Shown here piece after piece: positions 19,867 through 34,391 of a stretch of DNA of 64,000 nt (positions within the stretch are counted from its first letter, which is position 1; each line of letters opens with the position of its first letter). The DNA comes from Frankia casuarinae (GTDB taxonomy: Bacteria; Actinomycetota; Actinomycetes; Frankiales; Frankiaceae), in assembly GCF_000013345.1 (NCBI RefSeq), contig NC_007777.1, forward strand, positions 4,154,001 through 4,218,000. Reading direction: 5' to 3'. The notes under the pieces are model-generated. The model saw nothing but the letters and a program-made list of their open reading frames with translations. It was not told where the DNA came from and ran no database searches. A program made the translations under genes and the position numbers.

Positions 19867-19870
19867 TCAG
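19814..19870. repeat. 19-bp tandem repeat x3 running into an ABC gene stop codon
   Basis: Three exact copies of CCCCGCGGCACAGACTCAG. The last copy contains the TGA of the minus-strand ABC gene (19867-19869), so the stop codon itself appears to lie within the duplicated unit. Confidence 0.93.
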
Positions 19871-20712
19871 ACCGAGGCGGATACCGGATGCCGGGGAGGC
19901 GGTCCAGCGGCAAGCCGGGCGGTGTAGCGACCGGCCGCCACGCCGACCTCCAACGGAATCCCGAAGCAGGAGGACAGCGCCTGCGCGGTGAGGACCTGCG
20001 CGACCGGACCGGCCGCAAGCGCCTGGCCGCCGCGCACCAGCAACGCGTGGGTCACCCCGACCGGGATCTCCTCCACGTGGTGGCTGACGAGGACGAGGAC
20101 AGGAGCGATGGGGTCGGCCGCGAAGCGGGTGAGCCGCCGCATCAACGCCTCCCGCGCACCCAGATCGAGCCCGGAGGCGGGCTCGTCGAGCAGGAGGAGT
20201 TCCGGGTCGGTCATGAGGGCCCGGGCAATGAGCACGCGCTTGCGCTCTCCCTCGGAGAGGGTTCCGAACCGACGGTCGACCAGTCCACGGCACCCGAACT
20301 GGGTCAGCAGGCCGGCCGCGCGGGTGAGATCGACCTCGTCGTACTCCTCGTCGGCGCGGCCCAGCACGGACCAGCCGGCGGTCACCACCGCGTCGAGTAC
20401 CCGCTCGTCGGCGGGTGGCGTCTCCACCAGCGCCGGGCTGACGACACCCACCCGGTATCGTAGATCGAGAAGGTTGACCTTGCCGAGACGGGCGCCGAGC
20501 AGGTCGACCGTGCCCCTGGTGGGAAACAGCCGGCCCGAGGCCACCTGCAGCAGGGTCGTCTTCCCGGCGCCGTTGGGACCGAGGACCACCCAGCGCTGGC
20601 CAGGGAACACCGCCCACGACACGTTCCTGAGCAGGTATGACCCATCTCGCACGACATTGACATTGTCGAGGCGCAGCACCGCGTCCGGCATGCAGCTCAC
20701 GTTACGCGACAC
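19867..20712 (-). CDS. ABC transporter ATP-binding protein, orphan
   Basis: 281-residue ABC ATPase with Walker A GPNGAGKTT, signature LSEGERKR, Walker B ELLLLDEP and H-loop LVSHHVEE. The early text DAVLRLDNVNVVRDGSYLLRNVSW and a C-terminal half lacking extra domains resemble the YlmA/ModF-like single-ATPase group. No permease gene adjoins it, so the partner is elsewhere or the protein acts in a non-transport role. GTG at 20712 has AGGAAG 4 nt upstream; an ATG at 20691 is an alternative. It stands alone on its strand. Confidence 0.85.
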   Translation of the reverse strand: MSRNVSCMPDAVLRLDNVNVVRDGSYLLRNVSWAVFPGQRWVVLGPNGAGKTTLLQVASGRLFPTRGTVDLLGARLGKVNLLDLRYRVGVVSPALVETPPADERVLDAVVTAGWSVLGRADEEYDEVDLTRAAGLLTQFGCRGLVDRRFGTLSEGERKRVLIARALMTDPELLLLDEPASGLDLGAREALMRRLTRFAADPIAPVLVLVSHHVEEIPVGVTHALLVRGGQALAAGPVAQVLTAQALSSCFGIPLEVGVAAGRYTARLAAGPPPRHPVSASV

Positions 20713-20894: not shown

Positions 20895-23800
20895 TCAGTC
20901 CGGTTCGGGCGGGGTCGTCCCGGTCAGGTCGATCTCGGCCCACACGGCCTTCCCGTCGGGGACCGGACGGACGCCATGCCGAACGGCGAGCTGGGAGACC
21001 AGGCCGAGCCCGCGGCCGGCCTCATCCTCGGCCGCGGCGTGGCGCCGCCGCAGCACCCGGCCGCCACCGTCGGCGACCTCGACGACGGCCCGGTCGCCCA
21101 GCAGCCGCAGCCGCACCGACAGTGGTGGGCGACCGTGCCGCACCGCGTTGCTCGCCAGCTCCGACAGCACCAGAACGATGGTGTCGACGACTTCCGAGGC
21201 CAGCGGCGCGTTCTCCAGCGCGAGCCTGGCCTGAGCCCGCACGGCGCGCAGGCTCGCCGCACCGTCGAAGGTGACGTCCAGGAGGGCCGCCGCGGCCGTC
21301 GGTTCAACGGGCAACCGGGCGAACAGAAGCGCGACGTCATCGGCCGCCACCTCGTCGGCCGCCCCGTCGGCCGCCCCGGAACCCACTGGGCCGGGGGCGA
21401 CGGCGGGACCGAGACCGGCACACGCCGTGGTGACCAGGTCGTCCAGATTCGCGGTGAACCTGTCGCTGGCGCGGGCGAGCGCGGCCGCGAGCTGCGAGAC
21501 CCCGGCGTCGAGGTCGCGCGCACGTCCCCGGACGAGCCCGTCGGTGAACAGGGCGATCAGATATCCCCGTCCCAGTCGCACCGTGTACTCGGTCACGTCC
21601 GACCGGGCCACCCCGAGTGGAGATCCCACCGCCATGTAGAGCCTGGAGACCAACCCGTCCGGCGCGACGACCAGGGGCGGCGGGTGCCCGGCACTCGCCA
21701 GCGTCAGCACCCCACTGTCGATCTCAACGACCGCGTAGATGCAGGTGGCGATCTCCTCCCCGGGCAGGTCCGCGACGATGCCGTCCAGCAGCGTCAGCAC
21801 CTCGGCCGGGGGAAGATCGAGACGGGCGCAGGTGCGGGCCGCCGCGCGCAGCTGCCCCATCACCGCGGTCGCCCGGATCCCTCGGCCCATCACGTTGCCG
21901 ATCATCAGGGCGACTCGCCCGGCTCCCAGGTCAATCACGTCGAACCAGTCGCTACCGGCGTCGTCATCGACCCCGCCGGGCAGGTAACGGGTGGCCACCT
22001 CGAGCCCGGACGGGACGGCGGGTGGAGAACCGCGCAACGCCTCGCGCAGTGCCAGCGCATTGCTGCGCTCGGCGGCCCCCCGATCGATCCGGTCCAGGAC
22101 GACCCCCACCCGGGCGGCGAGTTCGGTCAGCAAGAGCAGATCCGCTTCGGTGAACGGAGGTCGATCCGCAACGGCGGTCACACTCAGTACGGCGACGACG
22201 TGGCCGACCCGTACCACGGGTACGACAGCCATCGTGTGGGCCCCCACCTGGCGGATCCACCGCTCGGCGTCGGCCGGCGGATCCCACTCGCCCGCTGTCA
22301 GTGCGACGATCAGCCGTTCGCCCCGGCGGGCGGCCCGGGCGAACGGACTCGCCGGCGACGTCGCCGCGCCGGCCCCCGAGGCGAACGGAGGCACCGTGCC
22401 AAGCCCGTCACGGGCCAGGACGACGAGTGGACGCAGCTCGGGCACCGGCTCTGCCGCCCGGTCCCCCGCCGTCTCCTCGGCCCCGGCCTTATCCCCGGCC
22501 GCGTCCCCGGCCTTATCCCCGGCCGCGTCCCCGGCCCGGACGGACACCGCGGCAGCGCTCCAGGACGCCGGGACGGGAGCGGGTGTGCCAGTGACGAGCT
22601 GGACAACACACAGGTCGGCGACCTCCGAGACGATCAACTCGGCCAGGGAGCGCAGGGCGACGGGAGGCTCCACGGCCGCGGCCACGATCCCGGTAGCTCG
22701 CCCCAGCAGCTGAAGGCGTCGATCGGCGAGTGCCAGGGCGGCCTGCGCCTCGCGCGTCGCAGCCAGGGTCCGATGACCGCGCGCGGCGTCGGCGGCGAGC
22801 TGTTCGTAGCCGGTGGCCCGTTCCAGGGCCTGCGCGCAGGCGTCGGCGATCGCGATGAGGGACGCCTGATCAGCGGCGGTGAACTCCCGCGCCTGGCGGA
22901 ACCCGAAGGTCACCACGCCGAAGGGGGCGCCGCCCCCGACGGCCAGCGGCAGCATCGCCCAGGCATGCTCACCCGCCGCGGCGGCGACGTCGGCGACCTC
23001 CGGCACCGGCCAGCGGGCGAGCAGCTCGTCGCGGTCGACGAGAAACAGCGCACGACCGCCCCGCATGACCTCCGCCACCGGATGTACCGCCCCCAGCGCC
23101 ACCTCCGACCAGCGGGCGAGGCCGTCGGCGGGACCCGGCGGGGCGTGGAAGAGCAGCCGGTCGTGCGCCTCGTCCACGAGCGCGACGCCCCGGCCGGCGG
23201 CCCCGGCCATCCGCCCCCCGACGTCGAGGACGGTGGCGACGACGTCGTCCACGGTCAGGGTCCGGGCGAGCGCCACGGCCAACGTCGCGGTCTGTTCGGC
23301 CCGTTCCGTCGCGATCCGGGCCCGCTGGTCGGCCGTGGCCCGGTCGGCCTCGGCGGCGCGTACCTCGGTGAGGTCGCGGATCACCCCGAGCCACTCGCTG
23401 GGCCGGCTGTTCGGCCGGCCGGCCGCCGGCATGGGAACGATGCGGGCCTCGACCACCCGCATGGCGGTGCGGTCGCCTCCGCCACCGGAGATCCGGAACT
23501 CGGCCTCGAAGGTCTCACCGTGCTCGATCGCCCCGTGCCAGGCGCGCCCGACCCGCTCCCGGTCGTCGGGGTGGACCACGCCGAGCCAGCCGAACCCGGC
23601 CAGCTCCGCCGGATGCCGCCCGGTGAAGGCCCGCAGGCGGGGCAGATCGGCATCGAGTGCCCCGTCGCCTTCGGCGTGGAACACGTCCACCGCGGCGGCG
23701 TCCACGAGGCCGAGGTAACGTGCGTCGGCCCGCGCCCGCTCCCCCTCGACCGCCCGCGTCCCGCTGGCGTCGATCGCGACGAACGCCACGCCCACCAGCC

Positions 23801-24833
23801 CGACCTGAGGGTCGTTCACCGGATACCAGCTGGCGAGCCACGTCTGCGGCGGCCCGGAACCATCGGTGGCGACCATGACCTCCAAGTCCACCACCGGCTC
23901 GCCGGTGCGCAGTACCCGTGCCAGCAGAGCGTCGAGTTCCTGGCCGGTGTCGCCGAGGAGCTCGGAGACGGTACGGCCGAGGTGCTCGTGGACCGGCCGG
24001 CGGTCGAACCGGGCAAGTGTGTCGTTGACCCGCAGGAACCGCCCGGCCCGGTCGAGCAGGGCGAGACCGACCGGGGCCCACGCGAACAGCGCGTCCAGCA
24101 TCACGAACGTGGCCGCGGGGTCGGTTCCCGGGGCGTGTCCGGGCAGGGGGAAAGCGGACCGGACACGCCCCGGCAGCCCCGCCGGATCGGACCGGCGCAT
24201 CCCTGGCGCCTCCGGCGCGCGGCGCGGCTCGGTGCCGTCGATGACGTCCCGCGTGACCGGCTCGGCGGTCACGGCCGAAGCGGCCGGCCGGGCGACCATG
24301 GGCCAGCCCTCGGGTAGTCCGGGTAGCTCGGGGTCGGCTCCCCGGTCTTGACCGGGGCCGGTCTCCGGGCCGGGAGCGTGCTTCGGGCCGGGGACCTGGT
24401 TCGGGCCGGGATGCGCGCGTGGGGCGGGGTTGGTGTGTGGGGCGGGGTTGGTGTGTGGGCCAGCCGACGGTCCCCCTTGGGATCGGGTGACCGGATTCGG
24501 TCCCGGGGAGACATCCCCCTGGCCGGACGGAACAACGCCCGATGACGGGGAGGCGGATCCCGGGGGGCTCACGGAGAAGCGCGCACCCGCGGGCCCCGCG
24601 GCCACCGACCCCAGATCCACCGACCCCAGATCCACCGACCCGAGGTCCCCCGGCAGCGCCTCCGACAGCCCAACGTTCGCCGGCCGGTACATCGGCACGA
24701 GAGACGCCTGCCCAGGCATCCCCTCTACGGGGGTACCAGGCGCCCCGGCAACTCCCGCAGAATCAGGGGAGAGCATCGGGAATGCGCCGGAAGCGGGCCG
24801 GACAGGCGGCTGCGCGGAGTGCGGCGACGTCAT
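20895..24833 (-). CDS. PAS-PAS-GAF-GAF-SpoIIE-HATPase signalling protein
   Basis: 1312-residue cytoplasmic sensor combining a PP2C-type (SpoIIE) phosphatase with an RsbW-like anti-sigma kinase domain, as in partner-switching control of sigma factors. Order: disordered Pro/Gly leader (1-240), PAS (about 245-350), PAS/PAC (about 370-490; HPDDRERV, EWLGVIRDLTEVR), two GAF-like domains (about 510-870), SpoIIE domain (about 885-1100; GSDWFDV, SAGHPPPLV, FTDGLVRGR, ADDVALLFARL), HATPase (about 1165-1300; LSELASNAVRHG, GRGLGLVSQL). The metal-binding Asp expected in the GDVMGxG motif is Asn here (GNVMGRG, N980). Its ATG overlaps the patA stop as ATGA. Several in-frame tandem duplications lie in the leader and before the phosphatase domain. 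Confidence 0.88.
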   Translation of the reverse strand: MTSPHSAQPPVRPASGAFPMLSPDSAGVAGAPGTPVEGMPGQASLVPMYRPANVGLSEALPGDLGSVDLGSVDLGSVAAGPAGARFSVSPPGSASPSSGVVPSGQGDVSPGPNPVTRSQGGPSAGPHTNPAPHTNPAPRAHPGPNQVPGPKHAPGPETGPGQDRGADPELPGLPEGWPMVARPAASAVTAEPVTRDVIDGTEPRRAPEAPGMRRSDPAGLPGRVRSAFPLPGHAPGTDPAATFVMLDALFAWAPVGLALLDRAGRFLRVNDTLARFDRRPVHEHLGRTVSELLGDTGQELDALLARVLRTGEPVVDLEVMVATDGSGPPQTWLASWYPVNDPQVGLVGVAFVAIDASGTRAVEGERARADARYLGLVDAAAVDVFHAEGDGALDADLPRLRAFTGRHPAELAGFGWLGVVHPDDRERVGRAWHGAIEHGETFEAEFRISGGGGDRTAMRVVEARIVPMPAAGRPNSRPSEWLGVIRDLTEVRAAEADRATADQRARIATERAEQTATLAVALARTLTVDDVVATVLDVGGRMAGAAGRGVALVDEAHDRLLFHAPPGPADGLARWSEVALGAVHPVAEVMRGGRALFLVDRDELLARWPVPEVADVAAAAGEHAWAMLPLAVGGGAPFGVVTFGFRQAREFTAADQASLIAIADACAQALERATGYEQLAADAARGHRTLAATREAQAALALADRRLQLLGRATGIVAAAVEPPVALRSLAELIVSEVADLCVVQLVTGTPAPVPASWSAAAVSVRAGDAAGDKAGDAAGDKAGAEETAGDRAAEPVPELRPLVVLARDGLGTVPPFASGAGAATSPASPFARAARRGERLIVALTAGEWDPPADAERWIRQVGAHTMAVVPVVRVGHVVAVLSVTAVADRPPFTEADLLLLTELAARVGVVLDRIDRGAAERSNALALREALRGSPPAVPSGLEVATRYLPGGVDDDAGSDWFDVIDLGAGRVALMIGNVMGRGIRATAVMGQLRAAARTCARLDLPPAEVLTLLDGIVADLPGEEIATCIYAVVEIDSGVLTLASAGHPPPLVVAPDGLVSRLYMAVGSPLGVARSDVTEYTVRLGRGYLIALFTDGLVRGRARDLDAGVSQLAAALARASDRFTANLDDLVTTACAGLGPAVAPGPVGSGAADGAADEVAADDVALLFARLPVEPTAAAALLDVTFDGAASLRAVRAQARLALENAPLASEVVDTIVLVLSELASNAVRHGRPPLSVRLRLLGDRAVVEVADGGGRVLRRRHAAAEDEAGRGLGLVSQLAVRHGVRPVPDGKAVWAEIDLTGTTPPEPD
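22485..22532. repeat. 24-bp tandem duplication inside the SpoIIE-type gene
   Basis: Two exact 24-bp copies, giving a repeated GDKAGDAA run between the GAF domains. In frame. Further perfect duplications in the same gene lie at 24421-24456 (18 bp x2) and 24606-24635 (15 bp x2). Confidence 0.92.
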
Positions 24834-27448
24834 GGGAGACGATTGTGGACGGCGTGCGCATGTTGTGCTGAACCACCCCGGATAGTCGCCCCGTCCGGAG
24901 TCGGGTGGTTCGGTGTCCAGAACCGCCGAGGTCCGACGTCCGCGCGGGGCGCCGACGGTCCAGCAACGATCTCCACGGACAGCACGGTCACCCGCCCGGT
25001 CGACACGATCACTGGATCCAACGTGAGATGAACCACCTCCGGCACGTCGTCGGCGAGCCGGGCGATCTTGAGGAGCAGGTCCTCCAGCGCGGCGATGTCG
25101 ACCGGCGTCGAGCCGAGGTATCCCAGCAGCAGCGGCGCCGCCCGCACCGAGCGCACGAGGCGCGCCGCGTCAACGTCGGTGAGGGGAAGGATGTGATGTG
25201 CGCGGTCCTCCAGCAGCTCGGTCGCGGGGCCCGAGAGGCCGAACGAGACCAGGGGACCGTACCGGGGATGCTCCTCGGAACCGACAACCACCGACACGCC
25301 GACCGGGGCCATCCGCTGGACGACAATCGGCACCTCCGCCCCGAGCTGGGAGCGCAGCGACGCCCATGCCGCCCGCACGGCTGCCGCGTCGGGCAGGTCG
25401 AGACGCTGACCGCGCAGGTCCGGACGATGCCGGTAGGGCCGCGACCGCGCCTTGAGCGCCACCGGATAGCCGCGCTGGCCCGCCGCCTCGACGGCCCGGC
25501 GCGGGGACGTCACCAGGACGGCCGGCTCCACCGTGACGCCGTAGCAGTCCAGCAGGGCGGCAGCCCGATCCTCCGGAAGGCGACCGGTGAGTCCGGCGAC
25601 GAGCGAACGCGCCTCGTCTGCTCGCACCGTCGTCGTCGGCACGGTGCCGATCGGGCGCGCCCACCACTGGGCGTAGCCCACCACCCGGCGCAGCGCGGCG
25701 ACGGCAGCCTCCGGCGACGAATAGGCCGGGATGCCAGCGAGCTCGCCGGGCATCTCGACCCCCTGCACGGCGGCGAGAACCGGGATCTCGATGGTCGCGG
25801 CAGCCGCGACGGCGTCCACCGCGATCGGCCCGGCCGGGGAGGGCGGCAGCCGGACCAGCGTGGCGATCAGCGCATCCGCCCGGTCCGCGGCGGAGGTCAA
25901 CGCCCGGGTGAGGTCCCCGGGGGAGCTGCCAACCGGGAGGAGCACCTCCTCGACTCTGAGCCCGGCCGCGTCGGCGGCGCGGGCCGTCAGCCGGACCAGG
26001 GCCCGGGAGTCGCCGACGACGGCGACCCGACCGCCCGCGGGCAGCGGCTGCGTGGTGAGCAGCAGCGCGACGTCGAACGCCTGGGAGACCTGGTCGACGC
26101 CGATCACCCCGGCCTGCCGCAGAAGCGCGTCGTCAAGGGTCGAACGGCCGGAGTACACGACGATCACTGGTTTACGCCGACCCACCCGCCGGGCCAGCCG
26201 GGCGAACTTGCGGGGGTTACCGAAGGTCTCCAGATGCATGATCACCGCGTCGGTCTCGGGGTCCTCCTCCCAGTACTGGAGCAGGTCGTTGCCGCTCACG
26301 TCGGCCCGGTCCCCGGCGGAGACGAAGACCGACAGACCGACCCCGCGCGCGGCCGCCGCCGCCAGGATGGCCCCGCCGAACGGACCCGACTGGGAGTAGC
26401 AGCCGATGCGGCCGGCCGGGGGCATCCGGGGCACCATCGAGGCGTTCAACCCCGCCGCCGGATTCTGGATGCCCATGCTCGCCGGGCCGACCACCCGCAT
26501 GCCATCCGCCCGGGCCTCAGCCACCAGGGCCGCGTCTGCGGCGGCGTCGCGCTGGTCGGTGAGGACGACCAGCCCCCAGACTCCCGCCCGCCCGCAGGCG
26601 GCGACGACGTCGGGCACCTGCGCGGGCGGCACGCACACCACGGCCAGGTCGACCGGACGCGGCACGTCCTCGATGCCGGCGTAGGCCTGGATCGACGCCA
26701 CCGCGCCGCCGGCCGCGGCCGCCGCCGGGTTCACCGGGTAGACGGGGCCGTCGAAACCGCCGGCGAGCAGGTGACGCAGGACCGCGTTGCCCACGGACGC
26801 GGCAGACCGCCCCGCACCGATGACGGCGATCGCGCGCGGATGCAGCAGCCGACCGATCGAGGCGGCCTCGGCATGGTGCTCCCGGGCCCGCATCACCCCG
26901 ACCGACTTCTGGGTGGGGGTGATCTCGAAGGACAGCCGGACCGCGCCCGAGTCCCAGGTCCTCGAGACCGTGTAACCGGCATCGAGGAAGACCCGGATCA
27001 TCTGCTGGTTCTCCCCGAGCACGTCGGCGTCGAAGCGGCGGATCCCACGGTCCCAGGCCGCGGCGGCAAGATGCTCCAGCAGCACCGAACCCAGCCCTCG
27101 TCCCTGCTGGGCGTCCTCCACCAGGAAGGCGACCTCCGCCTCGGTCGGCCGTGCGGCGGTGCTCTCCCAGTGGGAGACCGCGACCAGGTCGTCGCCGATC
27201 ATCGCGACGATGGCGCCGCGCAGCCGCTGGTCCACGGTCGTCATCCGGTGGATGTCGGCGTCGCTCAGGGCACGGCGCACGGCGAAGAACCGGAAGTAGA
27301 TCGACTGGGTCGACAGCCGGGTCCAGAAGGTCCGCAACAGCGGGCCGTCCGTCGGCAGGATCGGGCGGATGTGGGCGGTGCCGCCGTCACTGAGGATGAC
27401 GTCGGCCTCCCACTCGGCCGGATAGACGACCGGAGGCTCGGTGCTCAC
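24830..27448 (-). CDS. patA: Protein acetyltransferase: GNAT domain fused to NDP-forming acyl-CoA-synthetase-like module (PatA type)
   Basis: 872 residues. An N-terminal GNAT domain (1-180; acetyl-CoA loop QQGRGLG, then NQQMIRVFLDAGY) precedes a module resembling ADP-forming acyl-CoA synthetases: CoA-binding (about 200-310; AIAVIGAGRSAASVG), ligase-CoA (GCYSQSGPFGG) and ATP-grasp (about 630-850; LLDCYGVTVEPAVLV). The active-site His motif of true synthetases (SHTGA) is not seen; the site reads GRSTLDDALLRQAG, so the module is probably regulatory, as in Pat enzymes. GNAT-first order is that described for Streptomyces lividans PatA, which acetylates acetoacetyl-CoA synthetase. Located 47 bp after acuC and overlapping the next gene by 4 bp. 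Confidence 0.9.
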   Translation of the reverse strand: MSTEPPVVYPAEWEADVILSDGGTAHIRPILPTDGPLLRTFWTRLSTQSIYFRFFAVRRALSDADIHRMTTVDQRLRGAIVAMIGDDLVAVSHWESTAARPTEAEVAFLVEDAQQGRGLGSVLLEHLAAAAWDRGIRRFDADVLGENQQMIRVFLDAGYTVSRTWDSGAVRLSFEITPTQKSVGVMRAREHHAEAASIGRLLHPRAIAVIGAGRSAASVGNAVLRHLLAGGFDGPVYPVNPAAAAAGGAVASIQAYAGIEDVPRPVDLAVVCVPPAQVPDVVAACGRAGVWGLVVLTDQRDAAADAALVAEARADGMRVVGPASMGIQNPAAGLNASMVPRMPPAGRIGCYSQSGPFGGAILAAAAARGVGLSVFVSAGDRADVSGNDLLQYWEEDPETDAVIMHLETFGNPRKFARLARRVGRRKPVIVVYSGRSTLDDALLRQAGVIGVDQVSQAFDVALLLTTQPLPAGGRVAVVGDSRALVRLTARAADAAGLRVEEVLLPVGSSPGDLTRALTSAADRADALIATLVRLPPSPAGPIAVDAVAAAATIEIPVLAAVQGVEMPGELAGIPAYSSPEAAVAALRRVVGYAQWWARPIGTVPTTTVRADEARSLVAGLTGRLPEDRAAALLDCYGVTVEPAVLVTSPRRAVEAAGQRGYPVALKARSRPYRHRPDLRGQRLDLPDAAAVRAAWASLRSQLGAEVPIVVQRMAPVGVSVVVGSEEHPRYGPLVSFGLSGPATELLEDRAHHILPLTDVDAARLVRSVRAAPLLLGYLGSTPVDIAALEDLLLKIARLADDVPEVVHLTLDPVIVSTGRVTVLSVEIVAGPSAPRADVGPRRFWTPNHPTPDGATIRGGSAQHAHAVHNRLP

Positions 27449-27495
27449 GCGGCGCTCACCCGGTTCTCACGCAGTGCTCAGCTCTCACGCAGGGC

Positions 27496-28776
27496 TCAGC
27501 GGTCGACGGTGGGGTCGAGGCCGTGCAACGGCAGCACCTGACGCCGGGTCGCCGCCACCGTCCGGTCCAACGGATCGTCGGGGTCTCCCTCTCCCGCGTC
27601 CCAGGGACGATACCGGACACTCACCCCGTCCCCGAGCGTCCGGGGCATGGCGGCGGCTCCGACGGACTTCTGCCCGGTCGCCGCCCGCACCCGTCCCGGC
27701 GCCGCGGAGCGCCAGTCCTCCGGCAGGGCGCGGCCGGCATCCAGGGGCACGTGGCCGGCGATCGCCAGCAGCTGCGTCCAGGCCCGCGGCACGACCGTGT
27801 CCAGCGCGTACCCGCCACCGCCGCAGGCCAGCCAGCGTCCGTCGCAGACCTCGTGGGCCAGCGCGTGCAGCAGGTCGTAGGAGGCCCGTTGGCCGTCCAC
27901 CGACAGCGCCAGATCGGCCAGCGGGTCGAAGGCGTGCGTGTCGCAGCCGTGCTGGGTCACCAGCACCTGCGGCCGGAAGGACCGCAGGAGCACCGGCACC
28001 ACCCCGGAGAAGGCGCGCAGCCAGCCGGCATCGCCGGTGGCGGGGGGCAACGCCACGTTCACCGCGGTGCCCTCCGCGGCGGGAGCACCCACCTCGGTCG
28101 GGAATCCGGTGCCCGGGAAGAGGGTACTCCCCGTCTGGTGTAGGGAGATGGTGAGCACCCGCGGATCGTCGTAGAACGCCGTCTGCACGCCGTCGCCGTG
28201 ATGCACGTCCACGTCGACGTACGCCACTCTGGCGGCTCCGGCGGAGAGCAACCAGGCGATCGCGATCGCCGGGTCGTTGTAGATGCAGAATCCGCTCGCC
28301 ATTCCCGGCATCGCGTGATGCAGCCCGCCGGCGATCGACACGGCGTGCCGCGGCGGCCCGCTCCACACCGCCCGTGCCGCCTCGATCGTGCCACCGGTGA
28401 TGAGTGCGGCGGCCTCGTGCATCCGTTCGAAGATGGGGTTGTCGGCCGTGCCCAGGCCGAACAGGGCCGCGAACCTGGCCTGCGCCGGGTCGGGCGCGGC
28501 GCGGACCGCGCTCAGGTAGACCGGATCGTGGATCAGGCCGATGAGGTCGTCGGAGGCGAGGGTCGGCCTGGAGATCCGGATGCCCGGCGCGTCGAGAACA
28601 CCGAGACTCATGGCGAGGTCCATGGTGAGCTCGAGCCGCACGGGATGCAGCGGATGCGTCGGCCCGAAGTCGTAGCCGGCCATGACCGGATCCCAGGCCA
28701 CGACCGTCGGCTCGACCTGCGGCTCGACCTGCGGACGGCCGTCGGTCCGCCGCTCGGAATCGCCCGGGACACCCAT
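27496..28776 (-). CDS. acuC: AcuC-type protein/amine deacetylase (class I HDAC fold)
   Basis: Zinc-dependent deacetylase of the AcuC branch, which in Bacillus removes acetyl groups from acetyl-CoA synthetase. Catalytic landmarks are all present: GGLHHAMPGMASGFC with the His pair and N-D in YNDPAIAI, the zinc ligands in VDVDVHHGDGVQ, the distal Asp in VTQHGCDTHAFDPLADL, and LACGGGGYA with the active-site glycine/tyrosine loop. Length 426 residues, including a C-terminal extension of about 60 residues. First gene of the acuC-patA-phosphatase unit, 108 bp from the divergent acetoacetyl-CoA synthetase. The start at 28776 is an ATG. Confidence 0.92.
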   Translation of the reverse strand: MGVPGDSERRTDGRPQVEPQVEPTVVAWDPVMAGYDFGPTHPLHPVRLELTMDLAMSLGVLDAPGIRISRPTLASDDLIGLIHDPVYLSAVRAAPDPAQARFAALFGLGTADNPIFERMHEAAALITGGTIEAARAVWSGPPRHAVSIAGGLHHAMPGMASGFCIYNDPAIAIAWLLSAGAARVAYVDVDVHHGDGVQTAFYDDPRVLTISLHQTGSTLFPGTGFPTEVGAPAAEGTAVNVALPPATGDAGWLRAFSGVVPVLLRSFRPQVLVTQHGCDTHAFDPLADLALSVDGQRASYDLLHALAHEVCDGRWLACGGGGYALDTVVPRAWTQLLAIAGHVPLDAGRALPEDWRSAAPGRVRAATGQKSVGAAAMPRTLGDGVSVRYRPWDAGEGDPDDPLDRTVAATRRQVLPLHGLDPTVDR

Positions 28777-28884
28777 CTGTCGACCGTAGCCCGATCACGC
28801 TCCCAGAGATAGCGGTGGTGTCGATGACGAGGATCCGGGGCCATCGGTGAGGCACGTAGATCTGCCCGGAATGGCCTAGGGTCA

Positions 28885-31020
28885 GTGCCCGTGGCAGCAG
28901 ACCGAGTGACACCGGACCATGCGGCGATGGAAGACGGGCGGCAGCCGGCCGGCCGTGATGGTGGGTCGGTGGCTGCCGGCACGCCACTGTGGGAACCGCC
29001 TCCCCGTCGGATCAGCCAGGCCGCGGTGACCAACTACCGCGCCTGGCTCGCCGCCGAGCGGGGGGTTGAGCTCGCCGACGACACGCGCCTGTGGGAGTGG
29101 TCTGTCACCGACCTGGACACGTTCTGGGAGTCGATCTGGGATTTCTGCGCGGTCGAGGGGGACCGCGGCACCGGTCCGGCGCTCGCCGACGCGGCGATGC
29201 CCGGCGCGGTCTGGTTTCCCGGTGCCCGGGTGAACTACGCGGAGAACGCGCTCACCCGGCGCGGGCCGGCCCCGGCCGTCATCGCCGTGCGCGAGGACGG
29301 TGCCACGGCCGTGGTGTCCTGGGACGAGCTGCGCCGGCAGGTGGCGAAGGCGGCGGCGGGACTGCGGAGCCTGGGTGTCGCCGAGGGTGACCGGGTCTGC
29401 GCCGTGCTGCCGAACACCGTCTACGCGATGGTGGGGATGCTGGCCACCGCCAGCATCGGCGCGGTGTGGTCGTCGTGCTCGCCGGAGCTCGGCCCGACGG
29501 CCCTGCGCGCGCGGTTCGGCCAGATCGACCCGAAGGTCCTGATCGGCGTTGACGGCTACAGCTACGGCGGGAAGAGCTACGACGCCCTCGACACCCTCGC
29601 CGCGCTCGCGGGCGACCTGCCGGGACTCGGGGCAAGCGTGATCGTGCCGTACCTGTGGCCGGACGCGCTCTCCCGGGCCCGGGCCGCGGGGCTGCCGGGG
29701 CTGCTCACCTGGGACGAGCTGATGGCTTCGGAGACCTCCGAGCCCGAGTTCACCCGGGTCGCCTTCGACGCGCCGCTGTGGATCCTCTACTCGTCCGGCA
29801 CGACCGGCCCCCCCAAGGCGATCGTGCACGGCCACGGCGGTATCCTGCTGGAGCATCTGAAGTCGCTGGCGTTGCACCTCGATCTCGGTCCGGACGACCG
29901 GTTCTGCTGGTTCACCACGACCGGCTGGATGATGTGGAACTATCTGGTCTCCGGTCTGCTCGTCGGCGCGACCGTCGTGCTCTACGACGGAGCGCCCGGC
30001 TATCCGGCGCTCGGCACCCTGTTCGGTCTGGCGGAGGCCCTGGAGCTCACGTGCCTGGGCACGTCCGTGGGCTACCTGCAGGCCTGCGAGGACGCCGGGC
30101 TGGTCCCGCGCGAGTTCGCCGATCTGTCCAGGCTGCGCACCGTCGGATCGACCGGATCGCCACTGTCCGCAGCCGGCTATGCCTGGGTGTACGAAGCGGT
30201 GAGCCCGACCGTGATGCTGTCGTCGATCAGCGGTGGCACCGACGTCTGCACGGCGCTGGTGGCGGGCCTGCCGACGATGCCGGTGCGGGCCGGGGAGATC
30301 GGATCACGCGCGCTGGGCTGCGCGGTGCGCGTCTTCGACGAGGCCGGCGAGGAGGTCGTCGACGAGGTCGGTGAGCTTGTCGTGACCGCGCCGATGCCGT
30401 CCATGCCGCTGTGCTTCTGGGCTGACCCGGACGGCGGCCGGCTGCGGGAGAGCTACTTCTCCGTCTACCCCGGCGTCTGGCGCCACGGGGACTGGGCGAG
30501 GATCACACCTACCGGTGCCGTCGTCATCCAGGGACGTTCGGACGCGACGTTGAACCGCGGCGGCGTCCGGATCGGTACCAGCGAGCTCTACAGCGTGGTC
30601 GAGCGGGTCCCCGGGATCGCCGACAGCCTCGCGGTCGACACCGCGGACGAGCGCGGGCACGGCGAGCTGCTCCTTTTCGTCGTCCTCACCGAGCCCGGCC
30701 TGACCGAGGCGGTGGCCGCTCGGCTGCGCGAGGTTCTGCGCGCCGAACTCAGCCCACGCCACGTTCCCGACCGGATCATCGAGATCACCGAGGTCCCTCG
30801 GACCCACACCGGCAAGAAGCTCGAGGTACCGGTGAAGCGCCTGCTCGCCGGGACCGCCCTGGACGAGGCCGTGAGCCTCGACTCGGTCGCCAACCCCGAT
30901 GCCCTGCTGCCCTTCGCCGCCGCCTCGGCCCGGTCGCGGCGGTCGGCGTCGGAGCCGATGACGGGAAGCGCACTGGAACCCGGCACCGGATCCGACGGAG
31001 AAGCCGAACCCGGAGCTTGA
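28885..31020 (+). CDS. aacS: Acetoacetyl-CoA synthetase
   Basis: AMP-forming ligase converting acetoacetate, ATP and CoA to acetoacetyl-CoA. Motifs: ATP loop YSSGTTGPPKA, WMMWNYLVSGLLVGA and GTSVGYLQACEDAGL typical of the AacS group, GDWARITPTGAV, and the C-terminal PRTHTGKK with the catalytic Lys (K644 counted from the GTG at 28885). That Lys is the usual target of reversible acetylation, fitting the divergent acuC-patA genes. Starts at GTG 28885, GTG 28891 or ATG 28927 are all possible; none has a strong ribosome site. 711 residues, with a 45-residue acidic Ser/Gly tail. A strong terminator follows directly. Confidence 0.9.
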   Translation: MPVAADRVTPDHAAMEDGRQPAGRDGGSVAAGTPLWEPPPRRISQAAVTNYRAWLAAERGVELADDTRLWEWSVTDLDTFWESIWDFCAVEGDRGTGPALADAAMPGAVWFPGARVNYAENALTRRGPAPAVIAVREDGATAVVSWDELRRQVAKAAAGLRSLGVAEGDRVCAVLPNTVYAMVGMLATASIGAVWSSCSPELGPTALRARFGQIDPKVLIGVDGYSYGGKSYDALDTLAALAGDLPGLGASVIVPYLWPDALSRARAAGLPGLLTWDELMASETSEPEFTRVAFDAPLWILYSSGTTGPPKAIVHGHGGILLEHLKSLALHLDLGPDDRFCWFTTTGWMMWNYLVSGLLVGATVVLYDGAPGYPALGTLFGLAEALELTCLGTSVGYLQACEDAGLVPREFADLSRLRTVGSTGSPLSAAGYAWVYEAVSPTVMLSSISGGTDVCTALVAGLPTMPVRAGEIGSRALGCAVRVFDEAGEEVVDEVGELVVTAPMPSMPLCFWADPDGGRLRESYFSVYPGVWRHGDWARITPTGAVVIQGRSDATLNRGGVRIGTSELYSVVERVPGIADSLAVDTADERGHGELLLFVVLTEPGLTEAVAARLREVLRAELSPRHVPDRIIEITEVPRTHTGKKLEVPVKRLLAGTALDEAVSLDSVANPDALLPFAAASARSRRSASEPMTGSALEPGTGSDGEAEPGA

Positions 31021-31209: not shown

Positions 31210-32478
31210 TCAGTCGAGGAACTCGCGCAGCCGACCGGCGACGGCGGGCTTGCGCAACTCCCGAAGCGTGTCCCGCTCGATCTGACGGATGCGCTCACGG
31301 GTCAGGCCGAGCCGGTTGCCCACCTCGGCGAGGGTGTGCTGCTTGCCGTCGGCGAGACCGAAGCGCAGCCGCATCACCTCGCGCTCCCGCGGGCTCAGGC
31401 CACCGAGGACGTTCTCGATCTCGTCCTGCATGGCGCCGTAGGAGGCGGCGTCCGCCGGGGAGGTCGCGTCGGAGTCCTCGATGAAGTCACCGAGCACGGA
31501 GTCACCATCGTCACCGACCGAGGTCTCCAGGCTGACGGTGTCCTGCGCATACCGGCGCAGCTCCACCACCTGCTCGATCGGCATGTCCAGCTCGAGGGCG
31601 AGCTCCTCGTCGGTCGGCTCACGGCCGAGCGTGGAGACAAGCTGGCGCTGCAACCGGGTGATCTTGTTAATCTGCTCGACCACGTGGACCGGGATGCGGA
31701 TCGTCCGCGCCTGATCGGCGAGCGCCCGGCCGATGGCCTGGCGGATCCACCAGGTCGCATAGGTCGAGAACTTGTAGCCCTTGGCGTAGTCGAACTTCTC
31801 CACCGCGCGGATAAGACCGAGGTTGCCCTCCTGGACCAGATCCAGCAGGGTCATCCCGCGACCGCTGTACTTCTTGGCGACGGAGACCACCAGCCGCAGG
31901 TTCGCCGAGACGAGCTGCTGCTTGGCGGCATGGCCGTCCTTGACCAGCAGACCGAGATCACGACGAAGGTCGGCGGGCAGGTCGGGGACGCTCTCGAGCT
32001 TGTACTCAGCGAACAGGCCCGCCTCGACCCGCTTGGAGAGTTCGACCTCCTGGGCGGCGTTGAGCAGCGGCACCTTGCCGATCTCGCGCAGGTACATGCG
32101 CACGAGGTCGGCGGTACCCGCGTGTTCGGCGGTGGACCGGCTGGCGGCGGTGGCGTCGTCGCTCGCTTCCTCCTCGTCGAGGAGTTCGATGCCAACGGCG
32201 TTGAGGCGCGCGATGAGAGCGGGCAACAGTTCAATACCGATGTCCGCGGACTCGAGCACATCACGCAACTCGGAGCGGCTGATCTCGCCGGCCTCGCGAC
32301 CACGGGCGATGACCTCGGCCACCGCGCTCACATCGAGCTCGTCGGTATCGTCGGGAACAGCGGCCAGCGAACGGCTGGGAGCGGTGCGGACAGGAGGAGC
32401 GGCCCGACGAGCACGCCGCGGGCTACGCGGGCGGTTGTCGTCGGTGCGCTCGGCAAGTTCCAGAGCAGGCAGCGTCAT
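31210..32478 (-). CDS. RNA polymerase primary-type sigma factor (SigA/HrdB-like)
   Basis: 422-residue sigma-70 protein. The N-terminal 80 residues resemble region 1.1 ([21 protein letters not shown]), then region 1.2 ([16 protein letters not shown]), region 2 ([44 protein letters not shown], contacts the -10 box), region 3 and region 4 ([38 protein letters not shown], contacts the -35 box). The region 2.4 and 4.2 residues match group 1 or 2 factors. It is shorter than the long SigA of mycobacteria, so it may be either the housekeeping factor or an HrdA/D-type relative. The ATG at 32478 has no clear ribosome site. Monocistronic. Confidence 0.9.
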
Positions 32479-33053
32479 CAGTGGCAAATCCGATGGTCGG
32501 TGCGGGTGGGTCGTCTCGTTCTGTGCACGTGGGAGGTAACGAACGAAGACGCGGAACCATTCCCCGTGCAGGCACACCCGGACATCAGCGATCGCCGGGC
32601 CTACCAAGCAGTGTAGACCCTAGCCCTCGAGACGCTGCACTCGCTGCCGCGAAGACTACCTGGCAGATTCCACCCTGTGGCGCGAACCGCGAACTCTCCT
32701 GAGCTTCTCTGGTGGCCGAGCAGCCTGCGGATCAGGCCAACGGCAACTTTAAGTAACAGATCCACTACTCACCGTAGAAGTTTTTTGCGTTCCACCATCC
32801 GTGCCATATTTTCTGACGATCACCAGTCGGTGCTAACCCGTAACGGTAGTCGGCAAGCCGACACCCGCGACCCGGCCCGGACCCGGGCTCTCCACCGGGA
32901 CGGAAGGACCGGCGGGCCGACGCGGGCGCCGCCGCCGACGCCACCCCGACGCCACCCCGACGCCGAGGCGCTCGAGAACGGCGATTCCGTTAGGCGGGCC
33001 ACACCCGACGGACCCTGCCTCTGTGCACAGCGTGTAACCGCTACTCTCACACG
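32479..33053. other. Divergent intergenic region, sigma factor / glycoside hydrolase
   Basis: About 575 bp with a notably A+T-richer block at 32740-32830 (CTTTAAGTAACAG, AGAAGTTTTTTGCG, CCATATTTTCTG) that is the likely sigma gene promoter region. No supported gene; Pro/Arg-rich frames on both strands look like noise. Confidence 0.5.
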
Positions 33054-34391
33054 ATGTCCGTCCCCAGCCTTCCCGCAGACCTGGCGGCACTACGGGAAAC
33101 CGCGATCGACGTGCTACGAGACAACGACCTCGGCGACATCACCCGGCCCTCCCCGACGCTCTACCCGCACCAGTGGCTCTGGGACAGCTGCTTCATCGCG
33201 ATCGGACTGCGCCGTCTCGACCCGGGACGGGCCGCCAAGGAGGTCCTCTCGCTGCTGCGAGGCCAGTGGCCGAACGGCATGATCCCCCACGTGATCTTCG
33301 CGGAGACCTCGGACTTCTACCACGCCGGTCCGCAGCGCTGGCGCTGCGACCAGGTGACCACGACCGCCGGCGGAGTGCAGAGCACGGGGGTCACCCAGCC
33401 GCCGATGATCGCCGAAGCCGCCGTCCGGATCGCAGCCATGATGACGCCATCCGCCCGCGACGCCTTCTACCGCGCGTTGTTCCCCGGCCTGCTGCGCTTC
33501 CACACGTGGCTCTACCTCGAACGCGACCCCGACGACGACGGTCTCGTCACCCTGGTCCACTCCTGGGAGTCGGGGATGGACAACACGCCGGCCTGGATGG
33601 AGATCACCAGGCCGGCGGCTCCGCTGGGAGTGCGGGCACTGCGCCGGATCAACGGCGGCGACGCCCTGGACGCGCTGCGGCGCGATTCCAAGGAGGTTCC
33701 CCCCGACGAGCGGCTCACCTCGGGAGACCTGTTCACGCTCTACCGGATCGTGCGTGAGCTGCGGCGGGCGCACTACAACTTCCGCGAGATCCGTCGGAGC
33801 ATCGTCCCCCTCGTCCAGGACGTCGCCTTCAACGCGATCCTCATCCGGGCCAACGAGCACCTCACCGCCATCGCCGCCGAGATCGGCCAGACCATCCCCG
33901 CCTGGCTGTGGCGGTCCATGCACAGGACGCGCGAGGCGATCGAGCGGCTCCACGCCGACGGCACCTACTACAGCCGCGACTTCCGGACGGGAACGCTGCT
34001 GCGCCACGAGACGATCTCGGGGTTCCTGCCGCTCTATGCCGGGGTCGTGCCCGAGGACCGGGTCGACGAGATGGTCAAGACGCTCACCTCACCGCGCTAC
34101 TGGTCCCGGTTCGGCATCGCGAGCGTGCCGCTCGACGACCCGGGCTTCCTTCCCCGGTGTTACTGGCAGGGTCCCGTCTGGGTCAACATGAACTGGCTGA
34201 TTGCCGACGGGCTGGAGCGTTACGGTCGGCTCGACGCCGCGGAGAACCTGCGCCAGAACACGATCGACATGATCGCATCGTCCGGGGCGATGTTCGAGTA
34301 CTACTCACCCCTCGACGGTTCCGGCGCGGGCAGCAACCGGTTCTCCTGGACCGCGGCGCTCCTGGTCGACCTCCTCGCCGCCGAGCACTGA
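33054..34391 (+). CDS. (alpha/alpha)6-barrel glycoside hydrolase, MGH1/GH63-like
   Basis: 445 residues. PHQWLWDSCFIAIGL near the start, QPPMIAEAAV, HSWESGMDNTPAW in the middle and YWQGPVWVNMNWLIADGL with YEYYSPLDGSGAGSNRFSWTAALLVDL at the end fit the six-hairpin glycosidase fold shared by mannosylglycerate hydrolase, glycogen-debranching and GH63 enzymes. The Asp in WDSC and the Glu in WESGMD are candidate catalytic or substrate residues. No signal peptide, so it acts in the cytoplasm. Exact substrate (mannosylglycerate, glucosylglycerate, trehalose-like) is not decidable. Convergent with nrdJ. Confidence 0.78.
   Translation: MSVPSLPADLAALRETAIDVLRDNDLGDITRPSPTLYPHQWLWDSCFIAIGLRRLDPGRAAKEVLSLLRGQWPNGMIPHVIFAETSDFYHAGPQRWRCDQVTTTAGGVQSTGVTQPPMIAEAAVRIAAMMTPSARDAFYRALFPGLLRFHTWLYLERDPDDDGLVTLVHSWESGMDNTPAWMEITRPAAPLGVRALRRINGGDALDALRRDSKEVPPDERLTSGDLFTLYRIVRELRRAHYNFREIRRSIVPLVQDVAFNAILIRANEHLTAIAAEIGQTIPAWLWRSMHRTREAIERLHADGTYYSRDFRTGTLLRHETISGFLPLYAGVVPEDRVDEMVKTLTSPRYWSRFGIASVPLDDPGFLPRCYWQGPVWVNMNWLIADGLERYGRLDAAENLRQNTIDMIASSGAMFEYYSPLDGSGAGSNRFSWTAALLVDLLAAEH

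Follow-up and report, generated by a model that had tools for sequence, protein, structure and literature searches.

A family-wide Frankiaceae locus that joins acetylation genes to a sensor with a probable pseudo-phosphatase domain

Do a synthetase, the enzymes that may acetylate and deacetylate it and a signalling protein encoded beside them form one regulatory system? The question is raised by a locus of Frankia casuarinae, a member of the Frankiaceae, a family known for nitrogen-fixing plant symbionts. The stretch analysed, hereafter the window, comprises the 64,000 nucleotides from 4154001 to 4218000 of a single-contig genome of 5,433,628 bases (NC_007777.1). In the labels used below, its genus is g1, which we take to be Frankia, and its family f1, presumably the Frankiaceae; loci and genomes carry L and G numbers. 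A preliminary description had proposed that acetoacetyl-coenzyme A (CoA) synthetase (AacS), the acetyltransferase PatA, the deacetylase AcuC and a PAS/GAF/SpoIIE/HATPase protein, here called the sensor, are parts of one system in which sigma-factor signalling takes its input from acetyl-CoA or ketone-body status, or the reverse.

All the open reading frames were found as described. acuC (27496-28776), patA (24830-27448) and the sensor gene (20895-24833) are transcribed in this order from the minus strand, and the stop of patA overlaps the start of the sensor gene in an ATGA (24830-24833). aacS (28885-31020) lies on the plus strand, divergent from acuC, and encodes the motif PRTHTGKK. The reading that we favour, with a probability of about 0.55, is that the locus co-expresses a known acetylation switch and a sensor that, in this strain, has a dead phosphatase half.

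An acetylation unit of known type and its conservation

AcuC is the sole PF00850 (Hist_deacetyl) match of the genome (271 bits; E up to 0.001). Its HDAC domain with HH, D-VHH and GGGY motifs is that of a class-I deacetylase, and the motifs HH, D-VHH, GCDTH and GGGGY recur in each of the 28 loci compared. In PatA, an N-terminal GNAT domain precedes an ACD-like part (CoA-binding, Succ_CoA_lig and ATP-grasp_5; Pfam/NCBIfam), which is the architecture of Streptomyces lividans PatA (SlPatA). The Glu of the AEVAF motif, which we take to be the catalytic-type residue of the GNAT domain, was present in 92/92 aligned PatA homologues (the fragment L013 was left out). True nucleoside diphosphate (NDP)-forming synthetases carry a phospho-His in the motif SHTG. 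Because this column holds His in 0/92 homologues (the window PatA reads RQAG), the large domain of PatA is probably not a synthetase. Elsewhere in the genome, a PatA-like match at C1:3486305-3488365 is limited to the synthetase part (about residues 188-831) and split into two pieces within a frame of 758 residues; it is possibly an ordinary NDP-forming acyl-CoA synthetase.

The window AacS scored 796.5 bits against TIGR01217 (cut-off 520.9) and keeps both the P-loop that binds ATP (SSGTTGPPK) and the Lys of PRTxxGK, as an acetoacetyl-CoA synthetase should. PRTHTGKK begins at residue 638, so that the Lys following the Gly is Lys644 (codon 30814-30816, plus strand), the acetylation site predicted by motif comparison.

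Reversible acetylation by the PatA-AacS pair of S. lividans was reportedly described by Tucker and Escalante-Semerena in 2013. According to excerpts of a review, SlPatA has its domains in the order seen here and acetylates K617 of AacS; Acs is acetylated 34-fold less, and the acetylation of AacS is reversed by a SIRT-type deacetylase (PMC8007912); an excerpt of a second paper states that SlPatA efficiently acetylates and inactivates SlAacS (PMC4053389). The Frankia proteins resemble this pair, as portrayed in these excerpts, in the GNAT-first PatA with its ACD-like C-terminal part and in the type of target Lys in AacS. The acetylation half of the locus is a new member of an already known kind of system. 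The earlier reading of a writer, an eraser and their synthetase is supported by the genes present, by their conserved linkage, by intact active-site motifs and by the published pair. Unlike in S. lividans, where the deacetylase reported in these excerpts is of the sirtuin type, the Frankia patA sits with acuC and the sensor gene, and aacS adjoins them.

A second known arrangement is the acu layout of Bacillus subtilis, in which AcuA and AcuC act on AcsA. As in that layout, a writer and an AcuC-type eraser are encoded near the synthetase acted on; unlike in that layout, the Frankia writer is a GNAT-ACD protein and not AcuA, the target would be AacS and a sensor gene is added. The acu operon is named in an excerpt of PMC11532494.

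How far does this arrangement extend? The locus could be read in 28 of the 35 family genomes, the window being counted (13 of g1, 6 of g3, 7 of g4 and one each of g2 and g5). aacS, acuC and patA are found together in all 28, and the sensor gene follows in all 24 whose contig continues. Within g1, the order sigma-aacS-acuC-patA is kept in the 12 other genomes, and the sensor gene comes next after patA in 9/9 loci with a continuing contig (the contigs of L006, L009 and L013 end there). The four other genera have aacS, acuC and patA in 15/15 loci and the sensor gene in 14, the exception (L024) being a contig of 8 kb. The preliminary description had named one finding that would count against it, namely a phosphatase gene next to patA in this strain only; the survey placed that gene beside patA in 9/9 g1 loci and 14/14 other family loci, and this synteny rules out chance adjacency in one strain. 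In the window, in the 9/9 readable g1 loci and in 6/6 g3 loci, the start of the sensor gene is offset by -4 from the end of patA. By match coordinates, G304 has room for patA and acuC between the sensor gene and aacS; in G305 and G306 the two matches lie on different contigs, and G301 (63% complete) has no aacS match. The acuC-patA-sensor operon is family-wide yet not universal.

We also searched 295 genomes of the class. At least 196 had a PatA match and at least 211 an AcuC match, the family being included in both counts. Outside the family we compared 63 PatA-centred loci (L029-L091; L029 only 3 kb), a non-random choice, and 60 AcuC-centred loci, both sets picked to spread over genera. acuC adjoined patA in 7/63 of the former and patA adjoined acuC in 1/60 of the latter; the pair appears wider than the Frankiaceae, yet patchy (families f4, f28, f30 and f39). 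A close aacS was present in 0/63 PatA-centred loci, six of which show AMP-ligase-like matches at 24-30% identity. In a midpoint-rooted PatA tree, the acuC-linked PatAs and those of the Frankiaceae formed one clade (local support 0.924; inner nodes weak), which also took in the short L029 and two paralogues from the Frankiaceae that lack an acuC link. A scan of genome contigs with the whole sensor gave eight loci, seven from Streptomyces and one from an actinobacterial metagenome-assembled genome, and was not used.

Two predicted pseudo-enzymes

The sensor (1312 residues) consists by Pfam of PAS_4, PAS_3, GAF_2, GAF, SpoIIE (PP2C) and HATPase_c_2 domains. Its PP2C domain spans residues 971-1174 (21312-21923, minus strand; 133 bits), and its RsbW-like HATPase domain residues 1193-1299 (20937-21257, minus strand; 47.5 bits). 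Is the PP2C domain an active phosphatase? Excerpts of two papers state that SpoIIE binds Mn via Asp628, Asp746 and Asp795, Asp610 and Gly629 serving a second metal (PMC3517971, PMC5468089). A profile built from the window domain plus four paralogues aligned the columns GGD, GDV-G-G, TDG and DDVALL with solved SpoIIE (3t91), the GDV-G-G column falling on SDGMGNG; which Asp of the DD pair corresponds to D795 was assigned by us. At the D610, D628, D746 and D795 positions the window sensor reads D, N, D and D, the Asn being residue 980 (codon 21894-21896, minus strand), and it does not have the ligand set of an active SpoIIE/RsbU PPM phosphatase.

The same loss was seen across the genus. In an alignment of 21 rows including the window, in which 8/13 g1 and 5/7 g4 loci were readable, the D628 position was N, G or E in 8/8 g1 sensors and N in 5/5 g4 sensors. 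The g1 sensors had also lost D610 in 7/8 cases, D746 in three and D795 in three, and D795 was missing from 5/5 g4 sensors, in a gappy part of the alignment. All four ligands were kept in 6/6 g3 sensors and in the single g5 sensor, and the contig of the g2 sensor (L019) ends immediately beyond the D610 position, where D is kept. As a control we used the other SpoIIE genes of the genome, whose 15 SpoIIE matches represent 13 genes, two pairs being pieces of one gene. The 12 others all keep Asp at D628, ten of them in a plain GD[VA]-G-G (in the divergent L166 and L168 the Asp was called by eye). The 'phosphatase' half of the partner-switch sensor, as the preliminary description had it, finds no support in this strain.

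Loss of a ligand could reflect decay of the domain. In pairs that were chosen by hand and are mutually non-independent, the ratio of nonsynonymous to synonymous substitution rates (dN/dS) of the PP2C domain was 0.13-0.22 in g1 (five pairs), 0.21-0.37 in g4 (four pairs) and 0.09-0.41 in g3, where the domain is intact (five pairs). These ratios disfavour neutral decay, and since they show purifying selection we take the domain to be maintained. The Frankia PP2C domain is probably a maintained pseudo-phosphatase, predicted to be catalytically dead. Among the literature matches listed, no title or abstract start names a bacterial SpoIIE-domain pseudo-phosphatase, and the titles and abstract starts of the Frankia literature on acetylation, SpoIIE/anti-sigma and sigma/acetoacetyl-CoA contain nothing on this locus.

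In RsbW-type HATPases, the N-box Glu and Asn have roles in kinase and anti-sigma function. Both residues are present in the window sensor and kept in g1, g3 and g4 sensors. The g5 sensor (L026) shows the reverse of the Frankia state, with intact PP2C ligands and a lost N-box Asn. The closest solved relative of the catalytic part is Mycobacterium Rv1364c (3ke6; E 3.8e-27, query residues 6-356 of 382), a protein with a role in SigF control that likewise combines PP2C and HATPase. Unlike Rv1364c, which reads GDVVGHG, the window sensor reads GNVMGRG, and Pfam assigns it two domains each of the PAS and GAF types and none of the STAS type. A single-sequence structure of the catalytic part had a mean predicted local distance difference test score of 46.9 and was not used.

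We considered whether AacS, too, has lost its activity in part of the family. Its ATP loop and target Lys are kept in 13/13 g1 loci, 7/7 g4 loci and the g2 locus; in L011 and L012, A or D replaces the Gly preceding the target Lys. All six g3 genomes have a shortened AacS: the match stops at residues 563-566 of 711, the ATP loop has gone (e.g. TAENIGPPR), and so has the PRTxxGK domain, which carries the target Lys. The g5 protein (L026) lacks the loop and has Glu for the target Lys. Downstream of the g3 genes there is no convincing C-terminal remnant, the best matches being short or weak (18-24 bits), and the g3 genomes have no further AacS match at 48% identity or more; two extra matches in one of them (G055), at 32-33%, are probably other ligases. 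An assembly error is disfavoured, the truncation being shared by six species without a convincing remnant or another close AacS. Neutral decay is disfavoured by dN/dS values, again from hand-picked and non-independent pairs, of 0.20-0.36 (five g3 pairs) versus 0.14-0.31 (six g1 pairs), and the g3 AacS looks like a maintained pseudo-enzyme. PatA and AcuC have intact motifs in 6/6 g3 loci. Because both are intact while AacS is without its target Lys, PatA and AcuC must, as far as the sequences can tell, serve targets other than AacS in g3.

Reversible lysine acetylation and a stress-type sensor are combined in one conserved Frankiaceae operon, and what is new here is an operon with two lineage-specific, conserved pseudo-enzymes. 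These natural pseudo-enzymes, a SpoIIE-domain pseudo-phosphatase and a truncated AacS, are under purifying selection at one locus, and their roles are directly testable. They also carry a warning: a Frankiaceae gene annotated as SpoIIE phosphatase or as acetoacetyl-CoA synthetase may lack the activity that its annotation names.

Do the acetylation genes and the sensor act together?

In the reading that we favour, acuC, patA and the sensor gene would form a Frankiaceae operon, with aacS diverging from the shared intergenic region. At high acetyl-CoA, PatA would acetylate Lys644 of AacS and throttle the activation of acetoacetate, as for PatA on AacS in S. lividans, and AcuC would take the acetyl group off again. 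AacS would be one target of PatA and AcuC among others, because g3 keeps both enzymes with a dead AacS. The sensor and PatA would be translated jointly, which would keep their amounts in step, and the sensor would act through its HATPase domain as a PAS/GAF-gated kinase or anti-sigma-like switch, the PP2C half being a non-catalytic, conserved pseudo-phosphatase.

Several observations weigh against this reading. The eraser reported for AacS in S. lividans is of the sirtuin type, and AcuC is only a candidate for that role on AacS. The -4 overlap of patA and the sensor gene was not seen in the g2, g4 and g5 loci read. Outside the family, the sensor gene was beside patA in 0/63 PatA-centred loci and beside acuC in 0/60 AcuC-centred loci. 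In two g2 genomes (G302 and G303), match coordinates place the sensor match and aacS about 3 kb from each other, apparently as divergent neighbours. Because the N-terminal part of the sensor would fill these 3 kb, no room is left for patA and acuC, which seem to be missing from the locus. That the PP2C domain is dead is itself a prediction, and beyond the signs of an operon nothing ties the sensor to acetylation.

These points bear on a possible, clearly less probable explanation, in which the sensor is just part of a stable gene block next to a primary-type sigma gene, functionally unconnected with acetylation. An ABC transporter ATPase gene and a glycoside hydrolase gene are also in the block in most loci, and the sensor shows the lowest conservation among its members (50-63% versus 72-94% identity). 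The tight patA/sensor overlap is confined to g1 and g3, and G302 and G303 appear to keep the sensor with aacS in the absence of acuC and patA; this layout, if real, would favour a tie of the sensor to aacS over one to PatA. Against a mere neighbourhood, the -4 overlap persists through the g1+g3 clade and the linkage is present in five genera.

The sigma gene of this block went unmentioned in the preliminary description. It encodes a primary-type sigma-70 factor with regions 1.1-4 (31210-32607, minus strand; Pfam/NCBIfam), adjoins aacS and is convergent to it; a second primary-type sigma gene lies elsewhere in the genome. It is beside aacS in 12/12 other g1 loci and 13/15 other family loci (in L021 and L024 the contig stops at aacS). 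The neighbour is conserved and at most a candidate part of the unit. A different primary-type sigma gene adjoins acuC-patA in families f4 and f30 (L055, L056, L061, L066 and L120). That this gene is an orthologue of the window sigma was considered and dropped, its product being about equally like the window sigma and the paralogue of the latter.

The proposal of the preliminary description, a full partner-switch sensor with active phosphatase and kinase through which sigma-factor signalling would respond to acetyl-CoA or ketone-body status, now seems unlikely. The linkage of synthetase, writer, eraser and sensor on which it drew is kept in the family loci, g3 and g5 retain all PP2C metal ligands, and Rv1364c, the closest solved relative, is itself a PP2C-HATPase protein. 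The active phosphatase, however, is not supported, the D628-type Asp being lost in this strain and in all eight g1 members read; and where the ligands are intact, in g3 and g5, AacS is without its ATP loop and target Lys. The window also has neither a local STAS antagonist nor a SigB/F/G-type sigma factor. Six PF01740 STAS matches are present in the genome and none is within the window, PF01740 being the one STAS family searched and a distant partner being possible; the single SigB/F/G match above the cut-off lies outside the window, and the window sigma matches that model below the cut-off. A link from acetyl-CoA to sigma signalling would be conjectural, and is unsupported for this strain.

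The losses described above suggested another arrangement, in which one unit has two alternative outputs, AacS and the sensor PP2C domain; every lineage would keep one of them active and maintain its counterpart as a regulatory pseudo-enzyme. In a PatA+AcuC tree of 27 family loci (L013 left out) and five outgroups, g5, g2 and g4 branch in this order, followed by g3 with g1 (three nodes at 0.99, 0.99 and 1.0; family node 0.24). AacS was lost in g5 and g3 and PP2C in g4 and g1, never in the same lineage, and both were intact in none of the four lineages read (g1, g3, g4 and g5). The purifying selection on the g3 pseudo-AacS, the putative promoter element TAGGGTCA (see below) kept upstream of it in 6/6 genomes and the apparent retention of the sensor beside aacS in G302 and G303 would agree with such an arrangement, and G300 (g103) fits it, with a long match to AacS and none to the PP2C domain at 1e-30. 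Yet these are just four events, and the deciding lineage, g2, gives no PP2C reading. Because two losses of each kind, spread over four lineages, would be disjoint by chance in 1 of 6 cases, the reciprocity is suggestive only, a lead and not a result, and we regard alternative outputs as improbable. A fuller version, in which AacS and PP2C are coupled in a two-output switch with one catalytic per lineage, the truncated g3 pseudo-AacS serves as an acyl or acetyl sensor and PatA and AcuC also act on the signalling branch, appears quite improbable.

Expression signals and neighbouring genes

The region between aacS and acuC holds two putative -10 boxes. TAGGGT (28877-28882, plus strand), an instance of the TAGGGTCA element, stands 8 nt before a GTG at 28891, and TACGGT (28783-28788, minus strand), of the form TAC[CG][GT]T, stands 6 nt before the ATG of acuC. 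These conserved, divergent elements (within 28777-28890) are suggestive of two leaderless promoters. The TAGGGTCA element was found upstream of aacS in 23/28 loci (13/13 g1, 6/6 g3, 4/7 g4, 0/1 g2 and 0/1 g5), in g3 together with the GTG in 6/6; TAC[CG][GT]T occurs about 6 nt before the acuC start in 15/28 loci (13/13 g1, 2/7 g4 and 0/8 in g2, g3 and g5). Both boxes are candidate promoters, and the true start of aacS may be the leaderless GTG at 28891 instead of 28885.

On the other side of the sensor gene, at its 3' end, lies the ABC transporter ATPase gene (19867-20712, minus strand); it has this position in most family loci and is several kb farther away in L026. The glycoside hydrolase gene, similar to glucosylglycerate/mannosylglycerate hydrolases (33054-34391, plus strand), stays near the block and is inverted in all five g4 loci that show it. 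Among the other SpoIIE genes of the genome, two widely separated ones, L154 (C1:4514520) and L155 (C1:3064465), have identical catalytic-domain translations over about 200 residues, which suggests a recent duplication.

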